Below, in pieces: positions 25,658 through 46,953 of a stretch of 64,000 nucleotides of DNA. Each line of letters begins with the position of its first letter. The stretch's first letter is position 1. The translations under genes and the position numbers were made by a program. The notes beneath the pieces are model-generated. The model made no database searches, was not told the DNA's origin, and worked only from the letters and a program-made list of their open reading frames with translations. This stretch comes from Symbiodinium natans (Eukaryota; Sar; Dinophyceae; Suessiales; Symbiodiniaceae): NCBI GenBank assembly GCA_905221605.1, contig CAJNDS010002499.1, positions 212,001 through 276,000 of the forward strand. The letters run 5' to 3'.

Positions 25658-25992
25658 AAAAAATAGTAAATAGGGGGTTCCTAGGGTTCAGGCCTTCAGG
25701 CGCTGGGGTCAACACCTCACCATCTTCATTATTCACATCACATCATTTTCACCATCATCATCTTCTTCATTCTACATCATTATTTCCATCTCATTCGTTT
25801 TATGGGAGGGGTTTCTGGGGTTTCATCATGAAATCATCAGTTTTAAGTACATTCACCCTAAAATTTCATCACATGTAGTCATCTCATTCATTATTTTCAT
25901 CATAATTTCAGGGATTATCATAATTCCTAGGTTTCTGGGGAGTTTGACCTTCTAATGTTTTATCAAATATTCATAATAAGTTTTATTATGAA
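25658..25992 (+). repeat. Left terminal inverted repeat (335 bp)
   Basis: Starts AAAAAATAGTAAATAG and ends TTTTATTATGAA. Its reverse complement is found at 46619-46953, with no mismatch noticed by eye. It contains TTTTAAGTA at 25841-25849, which is the TACTTAAAA word on the minus strand. Short frames inside it are repeated at the other end and are not genes. Confidence 0.97.
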
Positions 25993-26219
25993 TGTTCGTT
26001 GGGGTTTTTGGTCTTGAAGGTTAGGGTTTTAGGTTATAGGCGCGCCTTGGCTTCTTCGTCTTCATCAACTTCCACATCTACACAGGTGCAACAGACATGT
26101 TTGAGTATGCAGTTCTCGCTTCTTCAGTGGACAACTTGTTGGTTTGAAAGAATTAAATATCCAGAGCGATTTTACAATCTCAAACGTTTCGCCCCTTTCT
26201 TCGTGCACTTTAGTGTGCA
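25993..26219 (+). promoter_or_regulatory. Leader region of the ubiquitin-like cargo gene
   Basis: The 227 bp between the left terminal repeat and the first ATG hold a short TTAGGGTTTTAGG tract and a pyrimidine-rich segment. A small inverted repeat (TGCAC 26204-26208 with GTGCA 26215-26219) has its right arm touching the ATG. No TACTTAA box is present. Promoter function is inferred from position only. Confidence 0.35.
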
Positions 26220-26789
26220 ATGGCATACCCGAGTAAGTCCATTCAGAAGATGGAGAAGCAACTCCAAGATGATGTTCATGAGAGCGAGGAAGAGTCATTG
26301 ACTGGTTCTTCCGGTGTTGATGAAGTGGTTGAGGTGGTAAGCACCGCCATGAAAAAGAAGAACAAGAAGTTGAGAATGTTCCGCATGAAGCGCGATGAAA
26401 GCCAAGTTCCTCACAACAAGGTTGAACTTGATGCCATGACCAAAGCAGAGATGAAGGAGCAACTCGTCACCATCAACGCCCAAATGGAAAATCTCCTTGT
26501 CTCGCGCGACTACCTTTTGCAGAAGATCGGTAAAGAAAAACCGTCTGCATCCACTGCCTCCGCCAACTTCAACATTGTCGGCATCTACAACGGAGAACGC
26601 GTCAACATCAACATCAGCCCCGAGGATACCCTGGCAATGGTAAAGCGAGATATCATTCGTCAGCATCGCATTCGCGGTGGCGCTGACATGAACCTTTTCA
26701 TCTCCAACCGCATGATTGAGGAAGATGGGAAGAAGAAGGTGAAGAACATGAGCTTCATTGTCGCCGGTACCGAGGTGACCATTCGCTAG
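26220..26789 (+). CDS. Cargo protein with C-terminal ubiquitin-like domain
   Basis: A 189-residue protein. Residues 1-43 are acidic and probably disordered, 44-58 are strongly basic, and 71-104 look like a coiled coil. Residues 117-189 read like the ubiquitin fold: NIVGIYNGERVNINIS matches the first hairpin, SPEDTLAMVKRDI matches the helix entry of ubiquitin-type sequences, LFISNRMIEEDG matches the third and fourth strands, and the chain stops at EVTIR where ubiquitin has its last strand. There is no C-terminal Gly-Gly, so conjugation by the usual route is unlikely; a docking or mimicry role is inference. Codon choice is more GC-rich than in the viral core, suggesting a separate origin. It is the first gene inside the left repeat. 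The domain call rests on pattern recognition alone. Confidence 0.65.
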   Translation: MAYPSKSIQKMEKQLQDDVHESEEESLTGSSGVDEVVEVVSTAMKKKNKKLRMFRMKRDESQVPHNKVELDAMTKAEMKEQLVTINAQMENLLVSRDYLLQKIGKEKPSASTASANFNIVGIYNGERVNINISPEDTLAMVKRDIIRQHRIRGGADMNLFISNRMIEEDGKKKVKNMSFIVAGTEVTIR

Positions 26790-26890
26790 GTCTTGACCTT
26801 TCAGCGTTTGCATCAACAGATGATGCACCGAGAGCCTATAGGTCTTGACCTTTCAGCGTTTGCATCAACAGATGATGCACCGAGAGCCTA
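26787..26890. repeat. 52-bp tandem duplication at the stop of the first cargo gene
   Basis: Two identical, directly adjacent 52-bp units (26787-26838 and 26839-26890) beginning TAGGTCTTGACC. The first unit begins with the gene's stop codon, so the duplication copies only the 3' untranslated region. Confidence 0.95.
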
Positions 26891-27088
26891 GAGATATCCA
26901 CAGGGCTTTAGGTTCAACTTGCACAACCCGTTGCACTGAAGAGCAGAAGTCAAAAAATCACATGATCAGCAGATGGGCGTGTTCCTCTCTCTTTGCTTGT
27001 TGCGCAAAGCATTTGAATGCTTTATGTTCACAGCATTTGTTGCTCACTTGCTGTAGTCAGGATTCAGGATAAGCACTTACTTTTCGCT

Positions 27089-27664
27089 ATGGTCTTGCTG
27101 GGTGTGAAGAAGCATATGACAAAAAAGGAGGCAATGGACGTCTTCAAGAAAAAATCACTTGCAAACAGCGTTCCCGAGAATGAAGAGTTGCCTACCAATG
27201 TGCAGTTTCCTGAAGAGTTCCTTGCATTCATGCAGAAGGTGAAGAGCAAGATGGACGAGGTAAAGACCCTTGTTGCTCAAGAAGTTCCCATTTTGAAAAT
27301 GGCGCTTCGTTCTCTACCAAATGAAAAGCTCAATGAGGTGAAGGACTTGATGCAAGAAGCCATTCGTGGATGTCGTGGTGACACAAGTGAAGCACGATTT
27401 TTTCGCGTCTTGGAGGTTCTTTTCCCTTCAATGTCTATCTTGAACAATGCCCAGAAAGAGCTCAACAATATCCAGAATGACTACCAGCGCTACTTCTTGT
27501 TGCTGTTCATTGACAACTACAGTGAAGCATCAGGTAGCACCGTTAAACATGGCAATTCACGCTTCCTCGGTGAGATTATCACTGAAATAGACCGTCGTAG
27601 AGATGAACAGCGTATGCCTTCAGCTTCAAATTCGGATGATGCACCCAATTGTGTAATTTCCTAA
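27089..27664 (+). CDS. Helical cargo protein ending in a CaaX-like box
   Basis: I do not recognise a family. From the ATG at 27089 it encodes 191 residues; an upstream in-frame ATG at 27017 would add 24 residues, and one at 27116 is also possible. The composition predicts mostly amphipathic helices, with heptad-like stretches around EEFLAFMQKVKSKMDEV and NAQKELNNIQNDY. The last four residues are CVIS after an Asn/Asp/Ser-rich tail. A cysteine, two aliphatics and a serine fit the farnesyltransferase CaaX pattern. Like its neighbour it has host-like base composition and sits in the left cargo module. Membrane anchoring by prenylation is inference; the gene call itself is supported by length and composition. 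Confidence 0.7.
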   Translation: MVLLGVKKHMTKKEAMDVFKKKSLANSVPENEELPTNVQFPEEFLAFMQKVKSKMDEVKTLVAQEVPILKMALRSLPNEKLNEVKDLMQEAIRGCRGDTSEARFFRVLEVLFPSMSILNNAQKELNNIQNDYQRYFLLLFIDNYSEASGSTVKHGNSRFLGEIITEIDRRRDEQRMPSASNSDDAPNCVIS

Positions 27665-27672
27665 AAGAAAGA

Positions 27673-27805
27673 GGTGTACACCAAAAGCGGGGAGAGCAAA
27701 CACCAAAAAGGTGTACACCAAAAGCGGGGAGAGCAAACACCAAAAAGGTGTACACCAAAAGCGGGGAATGCAAACACCAAAAAGGTGTACACCAAAATGG
27801 TGTGC
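27673..27805. repeat. 37-bp repeats carrying the palindrome GGTGTACACC
   Basis: Three 37-bp units start at 27673, 27710 and 27747, and a fourth partial unit starts at 27784. Each begins with the perfect 10-bp palindrome GGTGTACACC followed by AAAAGCGGGG (the partial unit diverges). The period is not a multiple of three, so it is not a coding repeat. A second pairing, ACACC-AAAAA-GGTGT, bridges neighbouring units. It lies just after the CaaX-protein gene. It could be a protein-binding array or a structured 3' region. Confidence 0.9.
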
Positions 27806-28275
27806 ATCTTCTTGCCTTAAACGCCCTTTAGGGGGAGTCCACTAAATGTTTAATTCCGGACTTCGGGTTTTGTTGTAGGGGCACGGCAACCAAAGAATGA
27901 GAAGTCGGCCTAAAATGTGCGATGTGCAGGATGCATACCAGCCTAAACCCCCTAAACCCCAAAATGTCAGATATCAAGTAGTCATATTCATAAAAATATC
28001 CCAAAAAATATAAATACCCTGAAAATACAGGCAAATCCCACACAAAATAACCCAAAATCCCAAAAATAATATATATCATAGACTTCAAGACATAGAATAT
28101 AAGTTTAGCCCTCCTACCCGATGGACTTTTCAACCCCTCATAATAATAAAATCCTAAAATATAGTGAATAAAGACATCATACGCTCGCGCCAGGTGAAGA
28201 ACGTGACATCCGACGATGTCGGCTCTTCCTTTCACAGAGACACAGAAGCCGATGTCGGCTCTTCCTATCCTTGAG

Positions 28276-28445
28276 ACGCTTTTAGGGTTTAGGGTTTAGT
28301 CCTTTCGGTTTAGTCCTTGAGGGTTGTTGTGGTTTAGTCCTTTCGGTTTAGGCGTTCGGGCGTTGTGGTTTAGTCCTTGAGGGTTGTTGTGGTTTAGTCC
28401 TTTCGGTTTAGGCGTTGAGGCTTGTTGTGTTTTAGGTAGGTCTGT
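28276..28445. repeat. Degenerate tandem repeats built on GGTTTAGTCC
   Basis: Starts with TTTAGGG-like words and continues with alternating units containing GGTTTAGTCC, TTTCGGTTTAGGCGTT and TTGAGGGTTGTTGT. The units look like expanded relatives of the telomere-like repeats in the host flanks but lie inside the virus. Confidence 0.75.
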
Positions 28446-28449
28446 TGTG

Positions 28450-28565
28450 TTGAAAAAAGGAACGCACCCCTTTTTATTCTTGCTTTTAGTGTCGCGTTTA
28501 GCACGCGAGGCTCGTTCCTCGCGTCCTCGTGTCCCCTTCGTGTAAAAAAGCGTTCCTTTTTTGAA
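28450..28565. repeat. Inverted repeat pair enclosing a small hairpin
   Basis: The arm TTGAAAAAAGGAACGC (28450-28465) pairs with GCGTTCCTTTTTTGAA (28550-28565) with one mismatch. A stem ACGCGAGG/CCTCGCGT lies inside. It could be a structured RNA, a decayed end repeat or a replication signal; position alone does not decide. Confidence 0.6.
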
Positions 28566-28740
28566 GATTTTGTTTTTTTGGGTTTGGTTTAGGAATTTGG
28601 TTGTATTTACACAGCACCGCGTGCCTCGCCTTGCCCTTTCGTTTTATGAAAACATTTTTAATAAAACCCTGAAAGGAGTGAAGATAAAAACCTGAAAGGA
28701 GTGCCCCACCGAGCGCCCACCAGCCCAGCCCCAGCGCCCC

Positions 28741-28769: not shown

Positions 28770-31700
28770 ATGGAGCCTGATGACGGAAGTCCCGACTTAA
28801 AGGATGAAACCCTATATACTTATATGGAAGATACATTAAAAAAATCTGTTATGAAATACGTCTTATCTTCAAAAATGGGTGAGATTAAAGTTAATAATAA
28901 AGGTAAACAGTTAAAGCGAGTAATTATAAACGGTAAAGAGTATCCATATAATCAATCAAATCCTTTTACAGAGCGTTTAACAAAGAAACTAGACAAAATA
29001 TCTAAAACACCAGAATACAAACGTTTTAAAGTATTAAACGACGCTTCTAAAAAAGTCATGGTTCGTCAAGCATTAAAAAGCTATGCTATTAAAAACAAAG
29101 CATCAATAACAGATGAACAATCCGCCTTAAAATCTTATGCTAATTCTTATTCCATTTCAAACATAAATCTTTCAGGTTTTAAAGGTTTATCATACCTTAA
29201 ATATCAAAAAGAACGCTTAAACGATTATCTTAAGAAACACAAGAGCATGAAAGTTTTAATTACTGTTGAATTAGTGTTTACATATCTCGCAGAAGATGAA
29301 GACGATGAAGATTTAGATAGAACACATACAATAGGAAGTAGAAGATACAATATTTTAAACGAAGAAGATTTAAACAATGCTATAAACAATATGGCGAGTG
29401 ATATTGAACTTCTAGTTGAAAACAAGAACTTAAGTAAATCAGGATTAAAAATAAAGAAAGTGAGTAAAATAACAATTCATTATGACAAATACGACCCTAC
29501 AAGAGCAGGTAAATTTATAGAACTACCCGATTGGATAGCAAAGAAAAAGGCATGTATCAATATTAAAAATGATGATGACTATTGTTTAAAATATTGTATT
29601 TTATGTAGATTTTATGATATATACAAAAAAGACCACCCAGAAAGACTTTACCATTATGCAAAGTTATTAGATAATGAAAGTTTAATAGCATGGGATGGTG
29701 TTAATTTTCCCGCTTCAAATGAAGATATTCAACACTTTGAAGAAATCAACAATAACACTTGTTCAGTAAATGTTTATACAGTTGATAATGATAACAACAA
29801 AATAAGAGCAGACAGAATAACAAAAATCATTAAACCAACTTGTCATGTTAACCTTTTACGATTAGATAATGATGATGGTTCTAGTCATTACGTTTATATT
29901 AAAGATTATAACAAGCTTATGTTCAGTCAAACAAACAAACACAAAGCAAAATTATTTCATTGTAGATTTTGTCAAAAAGGCTTTCAACAAGAAACATTAT
30001 TAACTGCTCATACATTAAAGGGTTGTATGGCTAATGAAGTTCAAGCGATTGAGATGCCTGAAGAAAAAGAAAAAATGATGTTCCAAAAGCATTACAAAAA
30101 ATTGAGATGTCCTTATGTTATTTATGGTGATTTTGAGTGTTTAACCACATTATCAAACGAGGGATTAAAGGGTAGCTATCAAGAACATAAACCAAGCGGT
30201 TTTATGTTAAATGTTGTTAATTCAATAACAGATGAAGTTAAACCATACATATATAGAGGTGAGGATTGTATGGAAAATTTTTGTAAAACAATGAATGAAA
30301 TAAGAGAAGAAATATTTGAGAAGATGAAAACACCGAAGCCCATGATTATAACACATGAACAAGAAAAAGAGTTCCAAGAGTGTAAGAAGTGCTTTATATG
30401 TGGTGGTTCATTTAATAATACTAAAGATAAAAAGAAGGTACGCGACCATTGTCATTTTACTGGATTATATCGTGGTTGTGCACATAACAAGTGTAATTTA
30501 GATTATTGTTTCAAATTCTTTAAAATACCAATATTTTTTCATAACCTTAAAAATTATGACGCACACCTTATAATATCAAATCTTGATAAACTGAATACTA
30601 AAAAAGATGATGTAAGCGTAATAGCACAGAACAGTGAGAAGTTTGTTACCTTTTGTTTGAAACAACTTGAATTTAAAGATAGTTTTAGTTTCTTATCTTC
30701 ATCGTTAGATAAGTTAGTTAAATTAACTAAATATGAGGATAATGAAAAACGAAGCGACTGGACAAACCATTTTACATACAGTAAAAATAGTGAATATGTT
30801 AAGGATGATTATGATTTGGATTTATTAACAGATAAGGGCATTTACCCATATGACTATATGAATGACTTTAGTAAATTCAACGAGACAGAGTTACCACCTA
30901 AAAAGGAATTCTACAGTCAACTAGCTGAAGAAGATATTAAAGATGAAGATTATGAAAAGGCACTACATATATGGAAACATTTTAACATTAAAAATCTCGG
31001 AGAGTATCATGACCTTTATCTTAAAACGGATGTTTTATTATTAACAGATGTTTTTGAAAATTTCAGAACAAAATGTTTAGAAGATTACGGTTTAGACCCT
31101 GCTCATTATTATACACTTCCTAATTTCGCGTGGGATGCCATGTTATTAAAAACGGGTGTTACTTTAGATTTAATATATGATGAAGAATTATATAAAATGG
31201 TTGAGAAGGGTTTACGTGGTGGTATGTGTCAAGTTTCAAAGAGAAGAGCAGAAGCAAATAATAAATACATGAATGAAATGTATGACGAAAATAAACCGTC
31301 TTCTTATATAAATTACCTTGACGCTAATAATTTATACGGTCTAGCGATGTGTCAAAAACTACCATACAAAGATATTAAATTTGTTGATAACTTTACAGAA
31401 GAACAACTTAACTCATGGTCAGATACTAATGTGGGTTTTATATTAGATGTTGATTTAGAGTATCCTAAAGAATTACACGATAAACATGTTGACTATCCAC
31501 TAGCACCGGAGATTATGAATGTAACGGTAGATATGTTAAGTGAAACACAAAAAACCATTTACAAAGCATACAATCACAATAAAGAACCTAGAGATGAAAA
31601 GACTAATAAGTTAATACTTAACGTATATGATAAACATAATTATGTATTACACATTAAGATGTTAAAATATTATTTGAAACAAGGACTAAAACTAAAGAAG

Positions 31701-32585
31701 ATAAACAGAGCTATAATGTTTAAACAAAAAGACTGGTTAAAACCATGGATAGATTTTAACACAAATAAAAGAAAGGAAGCCACAAGTGACTTTGAAAAGG
31801 ACATGTACAAATTAATGAATAACGCGGTGTATGGAAAAACGATGGAGAATGTGAGAGAACATATTCATTTTGAACTAGTTGATACACCAGAACGATTTCA
31901 AAAAGTAGTTAATGCACCTACTTATAAACACAGACACATCATTAATGAAAATCTAGTAGGAGTTGAAAAGTTAAAAGAAACAGTAAAGCTAAATAAGCCT
32001 ATATATGTAGGTATGAGTATATTAGATTTATCAAAGTTACATATGTATTCATTCTATTATGATGTGTTAAAGAAAAAGTATGAAGACAAGGTAAGATTAA
32101 TATATACAGATACAGATAGTTTTGTAACACACATAGAAACAGAAGATGTATATGATGATTTTAATGATATTAAAAAATACATGGATTTTAGCGGTTATGA
32201 TAAAGAACATAAATGTTATGATGCTACTAATAAGAAGGTGCTAGGCAAATTTAAGGATGAAGTAGACGGCAAGATAATTACCAACTTCATAGGATTAAAA
32301 CCTAAATCATACGCATTTAAAATATACAAGCAAGATAAAGAAGAAAAGAAATCAAAAGGAATAGTAAAGCATAAGGTTAAAAGAGAACTTAATTACAAAA
32401 AATATTTAGAAACACTTGAAGATAACAAATGTGATACAGTATCATTCAACAGTATAAGAAGTAAAAATCATCAAATATATTCAATAAATCAGGTAAAGAT
32501 GGCATTATCAAGCTATGACAATAAAAGATATTATTTAGATAAGGTAAACAGTTTACCTTATGGGCATTATAAAACATATCAATGA
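28770..32585 (+). CDS. polB: Protein-primed DNA polymerase family B (Polinton type)
   Basis: A 1271-residue replicative polymerase that would copy the linear genome using a terminal protein as primer. Exonuclease motifs are visible: ExoI YGDFE (D454, E456), ExoII HNLKNYDAH (591-599) and ExoIII YLKTD (750-754). Polymerase motifs are motif A DANNLYG (851-857), motif B KLMNNAVYG (1014-1022) and motif C YTDTDS (1112-1117). A C2HC finger (C398, C401, H414, C419) and an endonuclease-VII-like zinc region (C541, C544, DHCH at 559-562, C575) precede or interrupt the exonuclease, as is common in this family. The frame is intact. The ATG was chosen because it follows the TACTTAAAG box and the composition changes to AT-rich exactly there. 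It converges on a small minus-strand gene through a hairpin at the stop. Confidence 0.97.
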   Translation: MEPDDGSPDLKDETLYTYMEDTLKKSVMKYVLSSKMGEIKVNNKGKQLKRVIINGKEYPYNQSNPFTERLTKKLDKISKTPEYKRFKVLNDASKKVMVRQALKSYAIKNKASITDEQSALKSYANSYSISNINLSGFKGLSYLKYQKERLNDYLKKHKSMKVLITVELVFTYLAEDEDDEDLDRTHTIGSRRYNILNEEDLNNAINNMASDIELLVENKNLSKSGLKIKKVSKITIHYDKYDPTRAGKFIELPDWIAKKKACINIKNDDDYCLKYCILCRFYDIYKKDHPERLYHYAKLLDNESLIAWDGVNFPASNEDIQHFEEINNNTCSVNVYTVDNDNNKIRADRITKIIKPTCHVNLLRLDNDDGSSHYVYIKDYNKLMFSQTNKHKAKLFHCRFCQKGFQQETLLTAHTLKGCMANEVQAIEMPEEKEKMMFQKHYKKLRCPYVIYGDFECLTTLSNEGLKGSYQEHKPSGFMLNVVNSITDEVKPYIYRGEDCMENFCKTMNEIREEIFEKMKTPKPMIITHEQEKEFQECKKCFICGGSFNNTKDKKKVRDHCHFTGLYRGCAHNKCNLDYCFKFFKIPIFFHNLKNYDAHLIISNLDKLNTKKDDVSVIAQNSEKFVTFCLKQLEFKDSFSFLSSSLDKLVKLTKYEDNEKRSDWTNHFTYSKNSEYVKDDYDLDLLTDKGIYPYDYMNDFSKFNETELPPKKEFYSQLAEEDIKDEDYEKALHIWKHFNIKNLGEYHDLYLKTDVLLLTDVFENFRTKCLEDYGLDPAHYYTLPNFAWDAMLLKTGVTLDLIYDEELYKMVEKGLRGGMCQVSKRRAEANNKYMNEMYDENKPSSYINYLDANNLYGLAMCQKLPYKDIKFVDNFTEEQLNSWSDTNVGFILDVDLEYPKELHDKHVDYPLAPEIMNVTVDMLSETQKTIYKAYNHNKEPRDEKTNKLILNVYDKHNYVLHIKMLKYYLKQGLKLKKINRAIMFKQKDWLKPWIDFNTNKRKEATSDFEKDMYKLMNNAVYGKTMENVREHIHFELVDTPERFQKVVNAPTYKHRHIINENLVGVEKLKETVKLNKPIYVGMSILDLSKLHMYSFYYDVLKKKYEDKVRLIYTDTDSFVTHIETEDVYDDFNDIKKYMDFSGYDKEHKCYDATNKKVLGKFKDEVDGKIITNFIGLKPKSYAFKIYKQDKEEKKSKGIVKHKVKRELNYKKYLETLEDNKCDTVSFNSIRSKNHQIYSINQVKMALSSYDNKRYYLDKVNSLPYGHYKTYQ

Positions 32586-33680: not shown

Positions 33681-34472
33681 ATGATAACTCCTATAGTTAA
33701 ACCTGTTAATGTTAAAGAATATGATTTTAAACAATCTAAATATGAAATAGCACCACGACTACCATTTAGTCAAATAATTATTGGTCCTAGTGGTTCTGGA
33801 AAAGGTATCTTACTACAATCAATGATATTAGATATTTATCGTGATGTCTTCGCTAGAATATACATTTGGTCACCTTCAATTTCAGTTGATAGCAATTGGA
33901 CACCAGTTAAAAAATATATTCAAGATAATTTGAAGGTTGATTTAGAAAAGGAGAAATGTATGTTTGATGAATATGTTCCTTCAGAATTGGAAGCAGTGAT
34001 AAAAAGACAACATAAAGTAATAGAATATCAGAAAAAGAATGACCATAATAAATTACACTCAATACTTATTATTGTGGACGACTTCGCAGACAGTAAGGCT
34101 TTTTCAAGAAACTCACCGCTACTAAATCAATTGTATGTGAGAGGTAGACATAATGCAATTAATATTATAACATCAACACAGAAATTTAACGCTTTATCTC
34201 CTATAATTCGTGTCAATAGTCGCCAGTTATTTTTCTTCAGGTTAAGGAACTACAAAGAAATAGAAACAATGGTTGAAGAATTAAGCGCGGTATTAATTAA
34301 GAAATCCAGTGTAGCAGATACTAAAAACCTACAAGAAGCAAAGAAACTATTATTAGAAGTGTATAATATAGCAACAGAAGAACCATACAGTTTTTTATTT
34401 ATTAACTTAATGAAAGGGGATGTTAATGATATGTTTTATAAACGATTTGATGCTAAATTAGTTATTGATTAA
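33681..34472 (+). CDS. A32-like (FtsK/HerA) genome-packaging ATPase
   Basis: 263 residues. Walker A is GPSGSGKG at 35-42 with Lys-41. Walker B is ILIIVDD with D133-D134. A downstream STQKFNALSP motif and an IRVNSRQ segment match the polar sensor and arginine region of viral packaging ATPases of the A32 family. It would translocate DNA into the procapsid. The length is normal for PLV and virophage ATPases. It lies between the replication genes and the capsid block and ends in a hairpin shared with the convergent small gene. Confidence 0.93.
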   Translation: MITPIVKPVNVKEYDFKQSKYEIAPRLPFSQIIIGPSGSGKGILLQSMILDIYRDVFARIYIWSPSISVDSNWTPVKKYIQDNLKVDLEKEKCMFDEYVPSELEAVIKRQHKVIEYQKKNDHNKLHSILIIVDDFADSKAFSRNSPLLNQLYVRGRHNAINIITSTQKFNALSPIIRVNSRQLFFFRLRNYKEIETMVEELSAVLIKKSSVADTKNLQEAKKLLLEVYNIATEEPYSFLFINLMKGDVNDMFYKRFDAKLVID

Positions 34473-37254: not shown

Positions 37255-37345
37255 TAATCGTAAACGGCATAGCCCTTTAGGATTAGATGTTTTACATCTA
37301 ATCGTAAACCGCGTAGCGCTTTAGGATTAAATCTTTGATTTAATC
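37255..37345. repeat. Alternating hairpin array in the capsid 3' region
   Basis: Four overlapping hairpins. A (37255-37285) and A' (37299-37329) share TAATCGTAAAC...CTTTAGGATTA, with central stems GGC/GCC versus CGC/GCG, a double compensatory change. B (37281-37303, GATTAGATGT stem) and B' (37325-37345, GATTAAATC stem) overlap their edges. B' includes the capsid stop codon. A and B cannot fully form together, so alternative folds are possible. Confidence 0.8.
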
Positions 37346-38773
37346 GTAAACCTTTAAACCTAAATCCTTAATCTCTAATATTTGTTCCGACAGTAATGTT
37401 ATATAAATATTATCAGGCATAGCAGTAGTCGTTATTGAAGCATTTGCAGGTTTAACTTTTACTAACATCTGTTGTCCGGCGCGTGTATTAATTCCTGTGT
37501 ATGAACTGTCTGGAACTTTTTCAAATGAAAACCCAAATACAAATTGACGGTCGCGATACTGTCTGAAATCAATTGACAATGAATGTTGATGAAACATTGG
37601 AAGATTTAATGCCTTTCTTAAGTGATAGTAACATTCTTGAAGTGATGTAATCGGATACTCGGCATATAGTTTAGAACCTAATTGTATTTGCATTTGTAAA
37701 TCAAAATTATTGTCATAAATTCCTTCAGTTTGTTCGTCTGATTGTTGTTGTGGGTGATAGAAACGACAAAACTCTTTGTCACAGTATTCGTAACCTGTGC
37801 TTGGGTCTCCTTCCTTGTAAAATGTAATGAATGATGCTACTAATTTTGATACTGAACGGATGACTTGGACGTTAATATCAGTTGTGCCTTTTACTGATTG
37901 AGATTGAGTAATATAAGTTGTATAAGTAATGGGCAGGCCTTTTCCTTCTAAAAGATGTTTTACATATTCATTATTTAAGTTATTATCAAGGGTGCAAACA
38001 TCACAAACAACACGAGCATTATTAATTTCCCAGTCAACACTCGTATTTCTAAATTCAGCATCTGCTTCTGTGGCAGGATTAACATCAGTTACAAACCTAT
38101 TTCCTACAGCGTCCGCCGTTGTAACATCTTCAGGGTCAATTACACAATCAGTAGCATTAGTCACCAATTCTAATTCAATTGTTAAATTTCCCATATACTT
38201 TAAAGGCAAATACTTAAATTGACTGAATAAACCACATAAGGGCTTAAATCCAACAATCATTTTATCCTTAAAGCCTTGACAAGTTAAACCATTCACTTCA
38301 TATTTTAGTCTTGTGTCATTATCATTAACGAGAGTTTTAATTTCATCATCATATCTATAACCGAACCCTTCATTTGCTTCATCTTTTCTTGCACCTTGAG
38401 ACATCATTTTAGAGAACATATGATGAACTCGGTTGTAATTATCAAAGTCTTCAACAACCTGATTACCAGCAATAATTCTCATTCGTCTGAAAAAACTATA
38501 AGGAGGAGATAATGGACGGAGTTTGTTATTATATGTTCCAATGTCAAGATTTTGTAATGTAAAAAAAATTCTTACTGATTGAGGGTCTAACCACGCGTTG
38601 TCTTCAGCATTTAATGAAAATTTCAATACACGGTTACCACTTGTAGGCTTATAGATATTTGAACCAGAAGGCCAGAATGTAACACTTCTTCTATCAGTAA
38701 TATAACTTGAACCTTTGTTTAATTTAAATGACAGGTTGTCAATGAGAATATCCTCGGGGCTGAACGTCTCCAT
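37340..38773 (-). CDS. Major capsid protein (double jelly-roll, PLV type)
   Basis: 477 residues. The start, with SVTFWPSGSNIYKPTSG and then LDPQSVRIFFTLQNL, follows the pattern I associate with PLV and Polinton major capsid proteins, and the FFRRMRIIAGNQVVED region is likewise typical. The rest has the strand-rich, loop-rich composition of a double jelly-roll. The fold assignment is by pattern and gene context; there is no catalytic motif to confirm it. It would form the pseudo-hexameric capsomers. It is the middle member of a minus-strand block running lipase, small gene, capsid, fibre. The upstream region is purely AT-rich without the TACTTAA box, as for the other structural genes. Confidence 0.88.
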   Translation of the reverse strand: METFSPEDILIDNLSFKLNKGSSYITDRRSVTFWPSGSNIYKPTSGNRVLKFSLNAEDNAWLDPQSVRIFFTLQNLDIGTYNNKLRPLSPPYSFFRRMRIIAGNQVVEDFDNYNRVHHMFSKMMSQGARKDEANEGFGYRYDDEIKTLVNDNDTRLKYEVNGLTCQGFKDKMIVGFKPLCGLFSQFKYLPLKYMGNLTIELELVTNATDCVIDPEDVTTADAVGNRFVTDVNPATEADAEFRNTSVDWEINNARVVCDVCTLDNNLNNEYVKHLLEGKGLPITYTTYITQSQSVKGTTDINVQVIRSVSKLVASFITFYKEGDPSTGYEYCDKEFCRFYHPQQQSDEQTEGIYDNNFDLQMQIQLGSKLYAEYPITSLQECYYHLRKALNLPMFHQHSLSIDFRQYRDRQFVFGFSFEKVPDSSYTGINTRAGQQMLVKVKPANASITTTAMPDNIYITLLSEQILEIKDLGLKVYD

Positions 38774-39068: not shown

Positions 39069-39173
39069 ATGAAATCAGAAACTGATTTCATTAAGAGTTT
39101 AACTTTCAGTTAAACTGTTACAAATGTTTCACATTTTGAAGAATTTCATTAAAAATAAGTTTCACTTATTTTT
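39069..39173. terminator. Three tight hairpins in the lipase-like gene 3' region
   Basis: Perfect stems at 39069-39091 (10 bp, AAA loop), 39096-39116 (9 bp, TTC loop) and 39151-39173 (10 bp, TTC loop). The last overlaps the stop codon of the upstream minus-strand gene. Trinucleotide loops recur in the other arrays of this element. Confidence 0.65.
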
Positions 39174-39813
39174 ACTCAAATTGTTGCATAAACTCATCAC
39201 TTGTTATTGGTAAATTCCCTTCTTTATTATGAACATTGCCTATATCTTGATATGAATGATTTTGCAAGGGGTCTAATGTTCCCTTATTTAATGTTATACT
39301 ACCTTTATCAAACATACTAACAACATCTCCGGCATTTCGTATTCGTAAATTAGTTCCCGTATCTTCCGGTCTCTGACTTGAAACAAAAGGAGAACCATAA
39401 CTCCTACTTCTGAAAATATTACCATAATCATTATTAATTTGTTGCCCCACCGCTGAACCTAAACTATGACTAATTATATCAGTAATTCCTGTAAGTTGTT
39501 TACCGTCAACTTCTATAGTTTCGTCTTTAATAAATTTATTAACATCTTTATATCTTTTCGTTTGTTGTGTCTGATACAATGGTAATTTTAAATCATCATA
39601 AACATCTCTACCGCTTTTGGTTCCTGCAATGTATAAAATAGAACCATTTTGATAAATGCCTTCTGGGTTTTCATACGCAAGTCTTAAACCTTGAGTATCA
39701 GTTAAATATGTTTCAGTTCCTGCTAACTCTTCCCTAACATCGTTATGTATTTTATTTCTTGTTTTAGGCGCTTCATACAAAATACCTTCATTTCTTCTTT
39801 TATGTTTAAACAT
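39172..39813 (-). CDS. Class-3-lipase-like alpha/beta hydrolase
   Basis: 213 residues. DIISHSLGSAVGQ (113-125) fits the lipase-3 nucleophile elbow, with Ser-117 as candidate nucleophile; the usual first Gly of GxSxG is Ser-115. A YGSPF segment at 139-143 follows, then RNAGDVVSMFD with Asp-163 and NHSYQDIG with His-186 in the order and spacing of the lipase-3 triad. This suggests an esterase or phospholipase. Its placement in the capsid block, 39 bp divergent from the minor capsid gene, suggests a virion enzyme helping to breach a host membrane; that is inference. Short for the family, so it may be a minimal domain. Confidence 0.75.
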   Translation of the reverse strand: MFKHKRRNEGILYEAPKTRNKIHNDVREELAGTETYLTDTQGLRLAYENPEGIYQNGSILYIAGTKSGRDVYDDLKLPLYQTQQTKRYKDVNKFIKDETIEVDGKQLTGITDIISHSLGSAVGQQINNDYGNIFRSRSYGSPFVSSQRPEDTGTNLRIRNAGDVVSMFDKGSITLNKGTLDPLQNHSYQDIGNVHNKEGNLPITSDEFMQQFE

Positions 39814-39852: not shown

Positions 39853-40689
39853 ATGCTTAAGTTTAAAAAAGTATATATTGATAGTAGTTATAAAGTGAGT
39901 GGCACTCCGTCCGATTTTACAATTGACTTACCTGAAACGGTTCAATTAGAAGATAATATGCTATGTCAAATACACGAGGTAAGCATTCCTCATTCATGGT
40001 ATTCAATAAATAGCACTAATAATAACATTTATTGGAGACATCAAGTTATACCCCCAGGTGTAATAGCAGGTATTACTTATCGTAAAGTAACAATCCCTGA
40101 AGGAAACTATACAGCGGTTGATTTAGCACAAACAATACAAATAGCGATTAATTTATTGGTTGATACAGGGGACAGGCCTAATACATATTCTTTAAGTTAC
40201 AACACATCAACTAATAAATTTACAATCAGTTCTAATTATGCAACTGTTATTTTTGTTCTTCTTACTGATGGAGAAGTAGCTCCGTTAGCTGGTAGTTTTA
40301 GTGACCCCGTTGACATTAATAATTTAAGTTCAATGAATAGAGTAATCGGTAATACAACACCGGCAACTGATTCATATACTAATGTGGCACCTTATACAAG
40401 TAATTTTGTAGATTTAGTTCCCTTCAAGAGTTTGTATTTACATTGTAATGAAATTAGTAACTACAACCAATTAACAGTAGCGGGTAATTCATCAATAGTA
40501 AAGAAAGTAAATGTAACAGTTCCCTATCTGGGCGTTATAAACGATAATGAGTTAAGTAGTGTTGATTATATTGATGTATCGGGTAAAATGCTTCGTCGTT
40601 TGAATTTTAGACTTACTAATAATTTAAATCAGGTAGTAAATTTGAATAATGTTGACATCTCATTCACTTTAACCTTTTTTAGAGGTTAA
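39853..40689 (+). CDS. Minor capsid (penton) protein, jelly-roll type
   Basis: 278 residues. The opening VYIDSSYKVSGTPSDFTIDL followed by IHEVSIPHSWYSI is the signature I associate with PLV minor capsid proteins. The remainder alternates strands and Asn/Thr loops, ending FTLTFFRG. It would form the pentameric vertices. It begins the rightward structural block. Confidence 0.8.
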   Translation: MLKFKKVYIDSSYKVSGTPSDFTIDLPETVQLEDNMLCQIHEVSIPHSWYSINSTNNNIYWRHQVIPPGVIAGITYRKVTIPEGNYTAVDLAQTIQIAINLLVDTGDRPNTYSLSYNTSTNKFTISSNYATVIFVLLTDGEVAPLAGSFSDPVDINNLSSMNRVIGNTTPATDSYTNVAPYTSNFVDLVPFKSLYLHCNEISNYNQLTVAGNSSIVKKVNVTVPYLGVINDNELSSVDYIDVSGKMLRRLNFRLTNNLNQVVNLNNVDISFTLTFFRG

Positions 40690-40719: not shown

Positions 40720-41316
40720 ATGGAAACAATTAATGAGGAGGTTGAGGAGGTTAAAAATGAAGAAGAGACTAAAGAAGTGGTTAATGAAGTTATTCAAGAA
40801 GCAACGAAAGAAGAACAAAAGCAAGAAGAGGAAGTTAAAAATGAAGAAGTAGAAGAACAACCTAAACCAAAAGCAAAACCAAAGAAACAAGCGAGAAGTG
40901 TTAAAGTAGTAGAGCTTGTTGAATGTGAAGCGTGTAATAAAAAGATGCTACCAAAATCATTAAGACACTCACACCCGAGAAATTGTAAAGGTCAACCAAC
41001 AGAAACAAGGCCAATAAACAAACAACAAAATTCATATGGGACTAAATTAAAGGAACAAATGAGAAAAGAAATTGAAGAAGAGATGAAAACTAAATATGAA
41101 AATAAAAAACCTAGAGAAGAACAAATACAACAACAACCGACAAAACCTGTTAGAATGTCTGAACCAGAACACGAAGTTTCGTGTAGCATACGCGAACCAC
41201 CACCAAGAATTCCAACAGCAAGAGAACTTTTAGCATCATCTTATGCAGAAATAAGAAGAGCAAAACAACAGGAAAAGATGGAAAAGATAGCAAGGTTTAA
41301 AACGAGTATGTTTTAA
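40720..41316 (+). CDS. Acidic/basic zinc-finger protein, probable virion component
   Basis: 198 residues. Residues 1-45 are extremely Glu-rich, 48-60 are a Lys/Pro/Ala basic linker, and a C2HC finger follows (CEAC...HSHPRNC). Lys/Glu helices come next, then a Pro-rich segment. The finger resembles those in the polymerase and in the 116-residue protein. No enzymatic motif is seen. Position right after the minor capsid gene suggests a DNA-binding core or scaffolding protein; function unknown. Confidence 0.7.
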   Translation: METINEEVEEVKNEEETKEVVNEVIQEATKEEQKQEEEVKNEEVEEQPKPKAKPKKQARSVKVVELVECEACNKKMLPKSLRHSHPRNCKGQPTETRPINKQQNSYGTKLKEQMRKEIEEEMKTKYENKKPREEQIQQQPTKPVRMSEPEHEVSCSIREPPPRIPTARELLASSYAEIRRAKQQEKMEKIARFKTSMF

Positions 41317-41720: not shown

Positions 41721-42734
41721 ATGATTAAAACATTAAAATCTGAATTAAAATTACGACCTACTTACGATGAAATGGTAGGTATGATTGAAAGTCAAGGAGA
41801 TGAGAACCGACCACCAATAGAGAAAATAATTGACAGAAGAGCAACATTATTTAGAAACAACCAGTTCGGTAGTCAATTTGATAACATTGATTTTTTAGGG
41901 TTGAAGAAGCAAGAGGAGGATAAAGTTAAGAATGATTTAAGAAGAGCACAACTAAATCATTATGGGGTTACGAATGGTGTATCAACTGCTGTAGCAGGAA
42001 TGCAAACAAGTGCAACATCTAGCGGATATGATACACCAATAGAAGTTTATGAAGGAATGGAAGAAGAAGAAACGTATCCAGACTACATTCATGATTTAGA
42101 CGGTGCATTGAAAAGGTTGCAGGTGCTATCAGAACAAAGAAAACATGTAGAAGATGCCAAAAGTGATTTAGATGACGTTCATCATCAGTCATTACCAGCA
42201 GGCGTTGAAGTTCATTCAATGGATGTTCCAGCAGAAAATGATGATGATAATGAAGAAGAAGCAGAAATAACCGCGCTAGAACAAAAAGTAGCATACACAC
42301 GTGGTTTTGACCCTGACCAAGTCTTCAACGATGATAGCGTTACTTATAGAGGGTTAATGTTTCAGTTATTTGTTAGAGATTTGTTAACGGATGAAATGGT
42401 GGATTTATTGAATAAACTACCAACAGACCAGAAAAAGAAGCAATACCTAGTATCAATCATAGAGGGTCACAAAGAATTAGATGAATGGAACGCAGATTTT
42501 GACAGTGCTAAATTAAGTCGTAAAATAAAGTTGTTTAAAAGAGAGAGAAGACGTGTAAAATCCAAAAGAGTAGAACAATCAGCATCATCAAGTGGAGTAG
42601 GTGCAGTAGTCCCTTCACAAACAGCATCATCAACACCTTTAAGAGACATAGCAGTAGCTGGTGCAAAAGCAGGTGTTGAAACACTAGCAAAAGCGGGAGC
42701 AACAGCAATAGCAAAATCATTTTTACCAGTATAA
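41721..42734 (+). CDS. Probable virion protein, LRPTY family member 1
   Basis: 337 residues. The N-terminus carries KLRPTYDEMVGMI (10-22), matched by LRLRPTYEEIARE in the next gene. Both then have an Arg-Arg pair and a NIDF/NFDD aromatic-acidic patch about 25-30 residues later. The middle is acidic and disordered, 185-275 is helical, and the last 25 residues are an Ala/Val amphipathic stretch (AVAGAKAGVETLAKAG...). A shared N-terminal motif in two adjacent genes fits a capsid-docking peptide, but that is inference. Confidence 0.7.
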   Translation: MIKTLKSELKLRPTYDEMVGMIESQGDENRPPIEKIIDRRATLFRNNQFGSQFDNIDFLGLKKQEEDKVKNDLRRAQLNHYGVTNGVSTAVAGMQTSATSSGYDTPIEVYEGMEEEETYPDYIHDLDGALKRLQVLSEQRKHVEDAKSDLDDVHHQSLPAGVEVHSMDVPAENDDDNEEEAEITALEQKVAYTRGFDPDQVFNDDSVTYRGLMFQLFVRDLLTDEMVDLLNKLPTDQKKKQYLVSIIEGHKELDEWNADFDSAKLSRKIKLFKRERRRVKSKRVEQSASSSGVGAVVPSQTASSTPLRDIAVAGAKAGVETLAKAGATAIAKSFLPV

Positions 42735-42752
42735 AAATATACTTATTAATAT

Positions 42753-43559
42753 ATGTTGAGGTTACGCCCCACTTATGAAGAAATTGCAAGGGAAGCAAGA
42801 ACAAGAAGATTAAGAATATTACCAGAGAAAGAGAGAAGAACACAACAAGGTTTATTATTAAATGATGTTAACTTTGATGACTTTGATTTAGGTAAGTATG
42901 ATAAGAAGACAATATTAATGAATGATAACCCTAATAAGGGAACACAAACGGATGTATTCAATGAAACACCAAGCATAACAGAAAGTGAAAGTATGAAATC
43001 ATTAGAAGAAGAAGTTAAACAGAGACAAACAGATGAAAGCCTTTCAAGTATAAATAGTAGTAAAAAAGAAGAAAAGACTGAAAGAGAACGTGAACGCAAT
43101 CAACCAGAGAAAAAATCAGTAATGCGTAGAGTTTGTGATGCTATGTTTGGAGAAGATGAATTTAAAGAAGAAAGAGAAGAAATGAGAAGCAGAAGGCAAC
43201 AAATATATACTGATGAAGATGTAAATGAACCATCTGTAGAGAAACAAAAGACTGAAGAGAGCGATGATGATTTACCTATGAATGTTAAAAAATCTTTTGA
43301 GCCTTCTTCGTCATCAAGTTCTAGAAGAAGTTCAAACAGAAGTGTATTATTACCCATTGAAGAAGAGGCGTTAAGTGAACATATTCATTCATCACCTCCT
43401 GAAACAGTTCAAAGTTCCGTTCCAAGTGATAGAACAATTGAATATGTTGAAGAGCCAAGTCCACCTCAAAGTGTCATTAGTTCTCGTAGAAGTCAAGAAA
43501 CCATAGAATACATAAGGAGTAGAAGCAGTAGTAATAGCAGAAGAACATTAAGTAGTTAA
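42753..43559 (+). CDS. Probable virion protein, LRPTY family member 2, Ser/Arg-rich tail
   Basis: 268 residues. It starts MLRLRPTYEEI, paralogous to the start of the preceding gene. A short motif, SVMRRVCDAMFGEDEF, in the middle looks ordered. From about residue 185 the chain is Ser-rich, with two TIEY(V/I) repeats and an RS-type tail (SRRS, SRSSSNSRR). Such tails are often phosphorylated or bind nucleic acid. The start is separated from the upstream stop by 18 bp. Confidence 0.7.
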   Translation: MLRLRPTYEEIAREARTRRLRILPEKERRTQQGLLLNDVNFDDFDLGKYDKKTILMNDNPNKGTQTDVFNETPSITESESMKSLEEEVKQRQTDESLSSINSSKKEEKTERERERNQPEKKSVMRRVCDAMFGEDEFKEEREEMRSRRQQIYTDEDVNEPSVEKQKTEESDDDLPMNVKKSFEPSSSSSSRRSSNRSVLLPIEEEALSEHIHSSPPETVQSSVPSDRTIEYVEEPSPPQSVISSRRSQETIEYIRSRSSSNSRRTLSS

Positions 43560-43624: not shown

Positions 43625-43975
43625 ATGAACTCCTGCTTTGTAACGGAAAAAGGTGAAAAGTTAAATATTGATGATGACCTTTTTGACGTGCTGTGGAACT
43701 CGCTAGATGAAGAGAATAGCGAGGAAATAGCACAAGCGAAAAAGAAATCACACAATGATAAAAACAATGAAAAATATAAACAAAATGGCTACTTCAAACA
43801 ATATTTTAAAAATAATAGTCAGTGCTTTGAATGTGAGAAGTGTGGAAGAAAGATAAGTAGCAATACTAATAAATCTAAACATATGAACACGAAGAGATGT
43901 AAAGAAATTTATCAAGAAAAACTAGAAAAGGAAATGATGGATAAGATAGGAAGGAAGATATTGTTATGGAATTGA
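43625..43975 (+). CDS. Small C2HC zinc-finger protein
   Basis: 116 residues. An acidic N-terminal third and Lys/Asn-rich centre precede a finger, CEKCGRKISS...H..TKRC, with C-x2-C-x12-H-x5-C spacing. A basic helix ends the protein. The TACTTAAAG box suggests expression with the polymerase. DNA or RNA binding is inferred; it could regulate transcription of later genes. Confidence 0.7.
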   Translation: MNSCFVTEKGEKLNIDDDLFDVLWNSLDEENSEEIAQAKKKSHNDKNNEKYKQNGYFKQYFKNNSQCFECEKCGRKISSNTNKSKHMNTKRCKEIYQEKLEKEMMDKIGRKILLWN

Positions 43976-44006: not shown

Positions 44007-44939
44007 ATGAGTAAGAATAATAAATTAGCAGAACTATATTATGATATTGAGTCAGGTTTTGGGAGTGCAAAGAGTTTATATGATGATGCTATAAAAGCGG
44101 GATTAGTAGTAACGCTAAATGAAGTTAAAGAATGGTTGAAAAGTCAGTCAATAAAACAGAGAAGTAATTACAAACAGTATAACAGTTATTCAGCTCCTTT
44201 TGCTAGAGCTATTTATTCTGTGGATTTAATGAATATGATTAGTTTAATGAAAGATACTGACACATATAAGAAAGAATATCCGTTATATGGTTTTGTATGT
44301 GTTGATAACTTTAGTAAGAAGTGTCACGTTGTGCCAATGCAAAATAAAGACGGTGACACAGTACTAAATGCTCTAAAGGAATGTTTCAAAGTAATGGGTC
44401 ATCCCCAGTCGGTTTATAGTGATGATGAAGGAGCGTTGAACGATAAAATATTACAAAAATATTTGAAAGACGAGGGCATAACACATAATACAACTTTAAC
44501 TCATGCAAATGTGGCTGAACGAATGATAAGAACCTTAAAGAAAATGATAGGTGATAGGGCACTTGTTCATAAAGGAGCGTGGACAATAATGTTAAAACCT
44601 GTTTTGGATAAATACAATAAACAAATGAAACACAGCACGACGGGAATGACACCTAATGAAGCCCATAAAGATGAGCACCATATAGAAGTAAAAGCTAATT
44701 CAGTAATGAAGGAAAAATATTTACGAAATTATCCTAATATTAAAGAAGGTGACACTGTAAAGGTTTTTACAAAAAGTGGTGGTAATTATACCAGCAGAAA
44801 AGAAACAAGGAGCAAATGGAGCGAGAAAACATATGAAGTTAAAGAAGTTGAAAGAGATAAACAACTGAATAAATATTATGTTCTTGAAAGTTTACCTAAA
44901 AAATATATGAGACATGAATTATTGTTAATAAATAAGTAA
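44007..44939 (+). CDS. int: Retroviral-type (rve) integrase, Polinton family
   Basis: 310 residues. An N-terminal helical domain (GFGSAKSLYDDAIKAGLVV, then VKEWLKSQ) is of the kind seen in Maverick/Polinton integrases. The RNase-H-fold core has acidic residues Asp-73 (SVDLMNM), Asp-139 or Asp-140 (YSDDEGAL) and Glu-171 (ANVAERMIRTLK), a DDE triad. The C-terminal part (EGDTVKVFTKSGG...WSEKTYEV) is an SH3-like barrel as in retroelement integrases. It would join the terminal inverted repeats to host DNA, consistent with the element's identical ends. No TACTTAA box is present. Confidence 0.95.
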   Translation: MSKNNKLAELYYDIESGFGSAKSLYDDAIKAGLVVTLNEVKEWLKSQSIKQRSNYKQYNSYSAPFARAIYSVDLMNMISLMKDTDTYKKEYPLYGFVCVDNFSKKCHVVPMQNKDGDTVLNALKECFKVMGHPQSVYSDDEGALNDKILQKYLKDEGITHNTTLTHANVAERMIRTLKKMIGDRALVHKGAWTIMLKPVLDKYNKQMKHSTTGMTPNEAHKDEHHIEVKANSVMKEKYLRNYPNIKEGDTVKVFTKSGGNYTSRKETRSKWSEKTYEVKEVERDKQLNKYYVLESLPKKYMRHELLLINK

Positions 44940-44942
44940 ATC

Positions 44943-44951
44943 TACTTAAAG
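44943..44951 (+). promoter_or_regulatory. TACTTAAAG box
   Basis: Four bp after the integrase stop and 26 bp before the ATG at 44978. Confidence 0.55.
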
Positions 44952-44977
44952 AAAAAAGACTTTAATATATTAGTGAT

Positions 44978-45400
44978 ATGGACACTGATAAAGCAAAGAA
45001 GATTGTTAAGAAGTTCATCCAAAATAACCGTTATCCTGAATATAATGATATAGTTAAAATGTTAAAGAAAAACTTTAATAAATACCGAGAAAGTGATGAT
45101 AAAGAATTTGCTATTCATTATCTTAATCTTTTCAGTGAGTATGGACAACCGAACCATGAATGGATGAAAGAAATATATGAAAATATCATGAATAGAAAAC
45201 TAATTAAAACAAACGGTGAGAAGATATATAATAGAGGCGGTGCCCTTGTAATGCAATCCAACTATTATACATTGATTGAGATATTGAAAGATATGTTTGA
45301 AGATAAAGGTATGAAACATGATGAACGAGTAGAAATATTGTATCCAATAAAAGAAAAAATTAGTGAATGCTGGAATGGAGTGGGAGAATGGAGACACTAA
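44978..45400 (+). CDS. Right-end small protein, paralogue 1
   Basis: 140 residues, helical and charged. The C-terminus ends with a pattern ERVEIL-PIKEKI---W-GVGEW. The product of the gene at 46155 ends DLRISIL-TIVQVW--NGIW in the same place, so the two are probably distant paralogues. No known family. Located between integrase and right repeat, a typical place for accessory genes. Confidence 0.65.
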   Translation: MDTDKAKKIVKKFIQNNRYPEYNDIVKMLKKNFNKYRESDDKEFAIHYLNLFSEYGQPNHEWMKEIYENIMNRKLIKTNGEKIYNRGGALVMQSNYYTLIEILKDMFEDKGMKHDERVEILYPIKEKISECWNGVGEWRH

Positions 45401-45444
45401 CTATTATATTATAAACAATTAAAACTGTATAATATGCTAGTATC

Positions 45445-45453
45445 TACTTAAGG
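45445..45453 (+). promoter_or_regulatory. TACTTAAGG box
   Basis: One-base variant of the box, 27 bp before the ATG at 45481. Confidence 0.5.
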
Positions 45454-45480
45454 ACAGACCGCCCTAGAATAGTAGGAACT

Positions 45481-46101
45481 ATGACCATCCTAGATTATAG
45501 CAAGTGTGAAGCGTGTAAGAAACTTAAAAATACAAAATCAGTAACTTTAAATAAAATATTACCTGAAGTTGTAGTAGATAAAATCGTTTCATATAATTGT
45601 TGTTATTATTGTGGAATGATGAGGAAGAAAGAACAAGAAAATAAAACTAATGAGCACTTAAGTAAGATTGAAAAACAAATACAGTATTTCAAACGAACTA
45701 AATTATCAAGATTTAATGAATATGATAGAAGCATAACAAGGGAAATAAACCAACTGAAAAACATTATTGACAGAGGAAACAGTCCGTTTAAAAATGTTTT
45801 AAAATCATATGTTAGAAATTGCTATAGGGTAATAACTTATCAGTTCTGTATGGTTATTAGGAACTTACATAATAAGAAGTGGTTAATAGACTTTATAAAT
45901 AATAAATCAAATATACTAACCATGAGATATAGTTATTATAAAAATACTTATCCAGATAAATGGTTATGTAAAATAATTGTTTATGAATATTTACATGATT
46001 TGATAAGTTATGATATGAAGTATATTGATAATGATGAACTTAAAAAATATTTGAATGATGTATTTGATGATAATAATAATAAGAGGCACTGCCGACCCTA
46101 G
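45481..46101 (+). CDS. Right-end cysteine-containing hypothetical protein
   Basis: 206 residues. CEAC near the N-terminus and CCYYCG at about residues 40-45 could form a split zinc site. Between them, ILPEVVVDKIVSY resembles the start of an F-box helix, a weak resemblance. The rest is basic and rich in Tyr/Asn/Lys helices. No family is assigned. Confidence 0.65.
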   Translation: MTILDYSKCEACKKLKNTKSVTLNKILPEVVVDKIVSYNCCYYCGMMRKKEQENKTNEHLSKIEKQIQYFKRTKLSRFNEYDRSITREINQLKNIIDRGNSPFKNVLKSYVRNCYRVITYQFCMVIRNLHNKKWLIDFINNKSNILTMRYSYYKNTYPDKWLCKIIVYEYLHDLISYDMKYIDNDELKKYLNDVFDDNNNKRHCRP

Positions 46102-46117
46102 GCGGGAGGGGGTAGGC

Positions 46118-46126
46118 ACTTAAAGG
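46118..46126 (+). promoter_or_regulatory. CACTTAAAG box
   Basis: One-base variant of the box, 28 bp before the ATG at 46155, in a short GC-rich patch. Confidence 0.5.
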
Positions 46127-46154
46127 GAGGGCGTCCTACTATAGTAAGAGAGCC

Positions 46155-46583
46155 ATGAACTGGAAACTGGAAGGGGGGACGACACAGCAAGAAATCAAAC
46201 ATTTTATAAAAGAAAACCCGCTACCGCGAAGAGGAAATAAATTTTGGACAAAAGTTTCAGATAAATTTTTGATGATGGAAACACCCATTGATGAAGATGA
46301 TAAGAAAACAAAAGATGATAGACTTGAAATGCTTTTTGCTATTATGGTATTGAAAGATGAAGACGGAATGGTTGACATATATGAAAAAATTGACGATGTA
46401 GAAACCATTAAAAGGGTTGGAAAAGAGTTTAATGAAAGAAACGGTATGAATTCATTATATATTAATATTTGTATTTTACGAGAAGCAATTAGAACAATGA
46501 CTTTAAATGATGATTTAAGAATATCAATATTAAAAACTATAGTTCAAGTGTGGAAAGATAACGGAATTTGGAAAGAAACCTAA
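46155..46583 (+). CDS. Right-end small protein, paralogue 2
   Basis: 142 residues, last gene before the right terminal repeat. The N-terminus (MNWKLEGGTTQQEIKHFIKENP) is followed by acidic helices. The C-terminal LRISILKTIVQVWKDNGIW matches the end of the 44978 gene product in pattern. Function unknown. Confidence 0.65.
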   Translation: MNWKLEGGTTQQEIKHFIKENPLPRRGNKFWTKVSDKFLMMETPIDEDDKKTKDDRLEMLFAIMVLKDEDGMVDIYEKIDDVETIKRVGKEFNERNGMNSLYINICILREAIRTMTLNDDLRISILKTIVQVWKDNGIWKET

Positions 46584-46618
46584 AATATAAACTTCAAGAC
46601 AAAACCCCGCTACAAAGC

Positions 46619-46953
46619 TTCATAATAAAACTTATTATGAATATTTGATAAAACATTAGAAGGTCAAACTCCCCAGAAACCTAGGAATTATGATAATCCC
46701 TGAAATTATGATGAAAATAATGAATGAGATGACTACATGTGATGAAATTTTAGGGTGAATGTACTTAAAACTGATGATTTCATGATGAAACCCCAGAAAC
46801 CCCTCCCATAAAACGAATGAGATGGAAATAATGATGTAGAATGAAGAAGATGATGATGGTGAAAATGATGTGATGTGAATAATGAAGATGGTGAGGTGTT
46901 GACCCCAGCGCCTGAAGGCCTGAACCCTAGGAACCCCCTATTTACTATTTTTT
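46619..46953 (-). repeat. Right terminal inverted repeat (335 bp)
   Basis: Reverse complement of 25658-25992, apparently identical. Ends CTATTTTTT against a run of fifteen G. Contains TACTTAAAA at 46762-46770, reading out of the element. Confidence 0.97.

Follow-up and report, generated by a model that had tools for sequence, protein, structure and literature searches.

A complete Polinton-like provirus in Symbiodinium natans and the G/C-run insertion sites of its family

We analyzed a 64,000-nucleotide stretch of the genome of the dinoflagellate Symbiodinium natans (C2187:212001-276000; the assembly has 759 Mb in 2543 contigs). This stretch, referred to here as the window, contains a Polinton-like provirus of 21,296 bp at window positions 25658-46953. 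A sequence-only reading of the window had delimited the element there, with mismatch-free inverted repeats of 335 bp, a complete Polinton-like gene set, and an apparently recent insertion. Its boundaries proved right to the base. It missed the abundance of capsid copies in the same genome and the location of the family in runs of G or C. Wherever their termini are readable, members of this family sit in G/C-runs, and as a pattern this is strong.

The provirus, its ends, and its hallmark genes

The GC content is 0.28 to 0.34 in most of the element, compared with about 0.53 in the host. The element ends in terminal inverted repeats (TIRs) flanked by a short direct repeat:

25653..25657, no strand: target duplication, left copy GGGGG, the end of an imperfect G-run that starts at 25635
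25658..25992, plus strand: left TIR, identical core of 335 bp, with a looser match onward to about 26035
46619..46953, minus strand: right TIR, identical core of 335 bp
46954..46958, no strand: target duplication, right copy GGGGG, the first letters of a 15-G run (46954-46968)

Comparison of the arms (25658-26023 and 46588-46953) confirmed that the outer 335 bp contain no mismatch; overall, the 366 nucleotides match at 98%. Inward of the identical core the arms match more loosely for approximately 40 bp more, with 9 mismatches in bases 336 to 366 (ungapped). The abruptness of this change hints at homogenization or recombination of the arms.

Between the ends lie the genes that bear on the identity and the integration of the element:

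28770..32585, plus strand: family B DNA polymerase (PolB), protein-primed type, 1271 amino acids (aa) (Pfam DNA_pol_B_2, E = 1.3e-13)
33681..34472, plus strand: A32-type packaging ATPase (Pfam Pox_A32, 9e-11)
34842..37202, minus strand: fiber with a C-terminal Peptidase_S74 chaperone (Pfam Peptidase_S74, 4.2e-9)
37340..38773, minus strand: predicted major capsid protein (MCP), double jelly roll, 477 aa (fold match of a predicted model)
39172..39813, minus strand: putative lipase-like protein, 213 aa (SHSLGS/YGSP motif; no library match)
39853..40689, plus strand: candidate penton (minor capsid) protein, 278 aa (motif and position only)
43625..43975, plus strand: C2H2 zinc-finger protein, candidate targeting factor (Pfam zf-C2H2, 0.0039, below the cut-off)
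44007..44939, plus strand: rve integrase, 310 aa (Pfam rve, 4.7e-10; IS481-type match, 2e-11, below the cut-off)

A Pfam scan placed PolB, the A32 ATPase, the S74 fiber, and the rve integrase in uninterrupted frames. PolB also has a zinc-binding-like stretch near residues 528 to 577 and a weak match to Endonuclease_7 (1.9e-4, below the cut-off). The capsid frame gave no Pfam match above the cut-off. Its AlphaFold model, of moderate quality (mean pLDDT 58), matched the double-jelly-roll capsids of PBCV-1 (2.9e-14), Sputnik (2.9e-13), and mavirus (5.4e-10), although such fold matches do not rank virus lineages. On this basis we assign the frame, with moderate confidence, as a double-jelly-roll MCP.

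The second capsid protein is less certain. The 213-aa protein was considered as the penton protein and was dropped because of its SHSLGS/YGSP motif, which we take to be lipase-like and which has no library support; the protein also did not model (pLDDT 31). An N-terminal motif and the position of the gene, both presumably indicative of a penton protein, make the 278-aa protein the better candidate, and it has no significant library match. Searches by sequence for solved structures, made with profiles of the MCP and the 213-aa protein and with the integrase and the 278-aa protein themselves, gave no convincing match. The claim of a complete gene set holds for PolB, integrase, ATPase, and fiber by Pfam and for the MCP by fold, and the second capsid protein is unproven.

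The element combines a double-jelly-roll MCP (moderate model), an A32-like ATPase, and a length in the 14- to 40-kb range with long TIRs, which are marks of a Polinton-like virus (PLV). It also carries protein-primed PolB together with an rve integrase, as Polintons/Mavericks do. We conclude that window positions 25658-46953 contain a complete Polinton-like provirus, a new member of an already known kind.

Insertion sites in G/C-runs

The first ten elements inspected, and then four more, proved to be flanked by G- or C-runs at both ends. A genome search that was blind to the flanks, made with a pattern from inside the terminus, returned 23 places, every one of which abuts a G/C-run (at least 4 of 5 bases); a reversed control pattern returned none. 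In all, 25 elements yielded 45 junctions. At 44 of these, four or more of the five adjoining bases are the same G or C, and at 31 all five are. Such 5-mers make up 5.7% of the host background over 75,580 bases and 4.7% in the window. The lone exception is the right end of C1974 (TTGGG), where the border with an A-run is unclear. Six further ends are decayed, and four of them abut runs (C1004, C2419, the right end of C484, and C2213). The runs show no preferred orientation relative to the element (9 to 9 among 18 elements with a known capsid strand).

An exact 5-bp direct repeat flanks 15 of the 20 two-ended elements, a count that shifts for some elements depending on whether 5 or 6 A are assigned to the terminus. 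Mixed-letter repeats are unambiguous: AGGGG in C2245 and C1819 and CCCCT in C2062. C2245 lies in a short run, with cggttAGGGG before the element and AGGGGcccct after it. Every one of the 20 two-ended elements has the same flanking letter left and right, which argues for a pre-existing target, since symmetric end addition would not give this result.

It is therefore very improbable that the insertion itself or later events created the runs, whether through end addition, slippage in repair, or errors in the assembly. In favor of such an origin, homopolymers are prone to error, and the runs are of unequal length on the two sides. However, symmetric end addition would leave G at one end and C at the other, whereas the shared letter lies on the same strand, and many runs are imperfect and continue into other host DNA.

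Several observations weigh against insertion into G-runs as a general rule or against its attribution to the virus. In five of the 20 two-ended elements the 5-bp repeat is not exact, in part because runs of A and G obscure the boundary. The ends of 22 elements were sought where a guessed distance from the capsid gene would place them; a terminus was found in 8 and none in 14, so the statement on G/C-runs covers only elements with a recognizable end. No terminus was located at the guessed distance for the right end of C694, and of the remaining decayed ends, C1999 is ambiguous and the left end of C484 has no readable terminus. The empty site that the sequence-only reading proposed to look for did not turn up: the left flank of the window's element occurs once in the assembly, with no empty allele seen, and the right flank was not searched. 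G/C-runs are common in the host (42 of length 6 or more in 42.6 kb), and the junctions are compared with host 5-mers rather than with other mobile elements.

The last two points touch on an alternative in which the host decides, G/C-runs being open or fragile DNA where any incoming integrase or element lands. The frequency of runs in host DNA fits this alternative; further, the junction counts cover this virus family only, and any binding of G-runs by a virus part is hypothetical. The excess at the junctions over background is nevertheless stronger than we would expect from a chromatin bias, and the cuts fall inside the run itself, as the 5-bp repeat indicates, even in the short AGGGG of C2245. 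We consider a decision by the host unlikely and read the choice of G-tracts as one made by the virus lineage.

Two viral proteins could make such a choice. Residues D73, D139, and E171 of the integrase are invariant in an alignment of 20 relatives, and its C-terminal stretch resembles, by eye, the tails of retroviral integrases. In the compared portions, the window's integrase shares 70% identity with that of C902 and 68% with that of C1819, and these two elements occupy the same kind of site. A C2H2 gene directly precedes the integrase gene in all seven copies that cover the region (window, C2097, C2245, C86, C1819, C902, and C1974). The C2H2 proteins of the six other copies have 50 to 98% identity to the window's; the C1764 stretch covers only the start of the gene. 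C2H2-type zinc fingers often bind G-rich DNA. This tendency and the place of the gene before the integrase make the C2H2 protein a natural suspect, and a candidate, for targeting.

In the mechanism we propose, the virus would enter as linear DNA with inverted-repeat ends. The rve integrase would attach the AAAAAAT termini to a G-run already present in host DNA, and cuts 5 bp apart in the run would leave GGGGG on both sides. The site would be chosen by a viral protein, either the C-terminal part of the integrase or the C2H2 protein, and not by host chromatin. On balance we lean toward site-selective integration having evolved in this lineage of eukaryotic DNA viruses. The rve integrase, possibly assisted by a C2H2 protein dedicated to it, would insert the virus into plentiful and probably harmless G-runs, with a sequence demand far looser than that of classic site-specific integrases.

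Copies, age, and variable parts of the element

A search of the same genome with the capsid protein found at least 89 places, including the window's own. These capsid copies form a group of 34 at 97 to 100% identity and a group of 55 at 78 to 84%, and 5 of the 89 contain an internal stop. A protein database search with the capsid returned 493 relatives, with the best 120 listed.

We compared the MCP genes of 26 of the 34 close copies; seven others were not included, and C2038 was excluded because of its length. Over 325 pairs, the median synonymous divergence (dS) was 0.343, and the median ratio of nonsynonymous to synonymous divergence (dN/dS) was 0.056. The nearest copy to the window's capsid among these 26 lies at a dS of 0.236. 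Wide silent divergence combined with so low a ratio suggests that the close copies diverged mostly as working viruses. Judging from these sequences, we infer that related viruses re-entered the host repeatedly and that the divergence of most close copies took place in functional viruses rather than in silent genomic copies.

The copies might instead stem mainly from transposition or duplication within the host chromosomes. Of all pairs, C2209/C694 is the closest, with a dS of 0, and such near-identical copies weigh against re-entry as the only source, as copying or duplication inside the genome also happens. In the 83 to 84% capsid group (for example, C1213, C1899, C1967, and C2220), 11 hits share an equal score of 913.8 and are apparently near-identical; in contrast to the window's group, this points to copying or duplication in a recent burst. 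Selection on virus function during copying in the genome would, moreover, leave the same dN/dS mark, and the two processes are not cleanly separated. Against internal copying as the main source stand the silent divergence and low dN/dS of the 26 close copies and the TIR of the window's element, which is 100% identical between its own arms and at best 88% identical to a full-length TIR elsewhere in the genome (shorter matches reach 94%). We regard internal copying as a doubtful explanation for most copies and prefer repeated re-entry.

The arms also bear on age. In 13 other TIR pairs that were aligned, the arms differ at 0.8 to 15.5% of the compared bases (for example, with gaps excluded, at 3/381, 5/558, 9/488, 17/392, 22/408, 31/546, 29/424, and 68/440). 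Insertions of many ages are present in the genome. Identical arms in the window's element, set against the divergence of its TIR from those of other copies, suggest an insertion that is young relative to the split from the compared copies. The claim of a recent insertion is thereby supported in relative terms, although arm-to-arm conversion could reset this clock and make the insertion look younger.

Taking sites, integrase, and copies together, we think it likely that this is a complete PLV provirus, that its integrase inserted it into a pre-existing G-run chosen by the virus, and that related functional viruses re-entered the host repeatedly.

Some copies have features of their own. The ends of C1213 and C2220 were not found at the expected positions. 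C1974:297464-305365 is a short form of 7.9 kb with both TIRs present that sits at G-runs; it has no match to PolB, ATPase, fiber, capsid, or the penton candidate and retains the zinc-finger/integrase side, with broken integrase frames. C1848 carries two like-oriented left TIRs (299755 and 301314), 1.56 kb apart; they are 99.2% identical across 502 bases, and each follows a C-run, which is perhaps a partial tandem insertion. The integrase of C1819 is split into two frames, and the arms of that copy are those that differ at 31/546 bases.

The remaining features of the window's element are as follows:

26064..28700, no strand: GC-richer leader segment with frames at 26220-26789 (plus) and 27017-27664 (plus) and tandem repeats of 52, 37, and 38 bp
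40720..41316, plus strand: 198-aa protein, zinc-finger-like stretch on visual inspection (only a weak Pfam match, Ribosomal_L37ae)
41721..42734, plus strand: 337-aa protein with an N-terminal LRPTYDE motif, no assigned function
42753..43559, plus strand: 268-aa protein with an N-terminal LRPTYEE motif like its neighbor, no assigned function
44978..45400, 45481..46101, and 46155..46583, plus strand: three small open reading frames, no assigned function

The adjoining proteins encoded at 41721-43559 share an N-terminal LRPTY(D/E)E motif and are possibly related to each other. The stretch at 26.1 to 28.8 kb has a GC content mostly of 0.42 to 0.52, with a dip to 0.345 near 27.9 to 28.2 kb. It was considered as a nested insert, a view that was set aside for that of a variable leader region: its length and content differ among five copies compared. 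The leader has no match in most copies examined and 72% identity to C2097 over 0.86 kb, and its 189-aa frame is faintly matched (25%) in C1974, the short form. TTTAGGG-like repeats near 28281-28438 are similar to host repeats. Host DNA in the window contains long simple arrays, (ACACACAA)44, (TGTA)27, and (TG)n, at 2709-3059, 51441-51549, and 58653-59158. Searches of the window with Rfam (gathering threshold) and for tRNAs gave no match.

Comparison with known systems

Endogenous PLVs are a visible part of some protist genomes, as described in available portions of PMC12220804 and PMC10120064, and little appears to be published on their choice of sites. If the integrase or its zinc-finger neighbor reads G-runs, viral target choice could be tested in vitro with just one or two proteins, and target duplications of low complexity that were dismissed elsewhere would merit re-examination. 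PMC12220804, for example, treats GAGGG, a low-complexity repeat of its clusters C5/C6, as spurious. Repeated invasion can also be dated from the spread of arm divergence.

Protist PLVs, those of cryptophytes among them, are elements of approximately 14 to 40 kb in large genomes, usually with a GC content below that of the host, long TIRs, and many copies; they encode an MCP, an A32 ATPase, and an S74 fiber, often an rve integrase and protein-primed PolB, and in some cases a putative lipase (excerpts of PMC12220804, PMC10675990, and PMC10120064). The window's element shares their size, lower GC content, long TIRs, gene set, and copy abundance. Unlike for the window's family, no G-run target is described in the available parts of these three papers or of PMC8547959 and PMC12721341. 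A literature search for target preferences in the PLV group or for homopolymer targets found no report, with subscription literature mostly outside its scope.

The nearest environmental relative found, IMG/VR contig IMGVR_UViG_3300028392_002905, was the one relative from an integrase-alignment scan of viral_contigs; scans of the same set with a single-sequence MCP, a single-sequence integrase, and an MCP alignment found no relative, and tblastn of PolB against phage records gave no match. Its PolB, integrase, and MCP are 55%, 44%, and 36% identical to the window's, and its ATPase, S74 fiber, and MCP have the same order and orientation. In contrast to the window's element, its integrase adjoins PolB; it shows no TIR in the 12,240 of 17,398 bases examined and no host flank.

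Polintons/Mavericks share PolB, rve integrase, A32 ATPase, double-jelly-roll capsid, and TIRs with the window's element. They differ from it in two respects. No capsid maturation cysteine protease was found among its 20 frames scanned with Pfam, which a very diverged one could escape, and a 5-bp repeat, not the 6-bp target duplication of Polintons/Mavericks, fits its family best (C1764 is readable as 6 bp). For rve integrases, the accessible text of PMC12220804 gives a duplication of 6 bp as typical and elsewhere one of 5 to 6 bp.

Insertion into simple repeats, as in the window's family, is also the subject of a paper on microsatellite-targeting transposons, according to its title (PMC5907723); those elements form plant transposable-element arrays and are not capsid-bearing viruses, and G-runs are not named in the part available. 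The preference of the window's family for G-runs is a new variant within a known kind.

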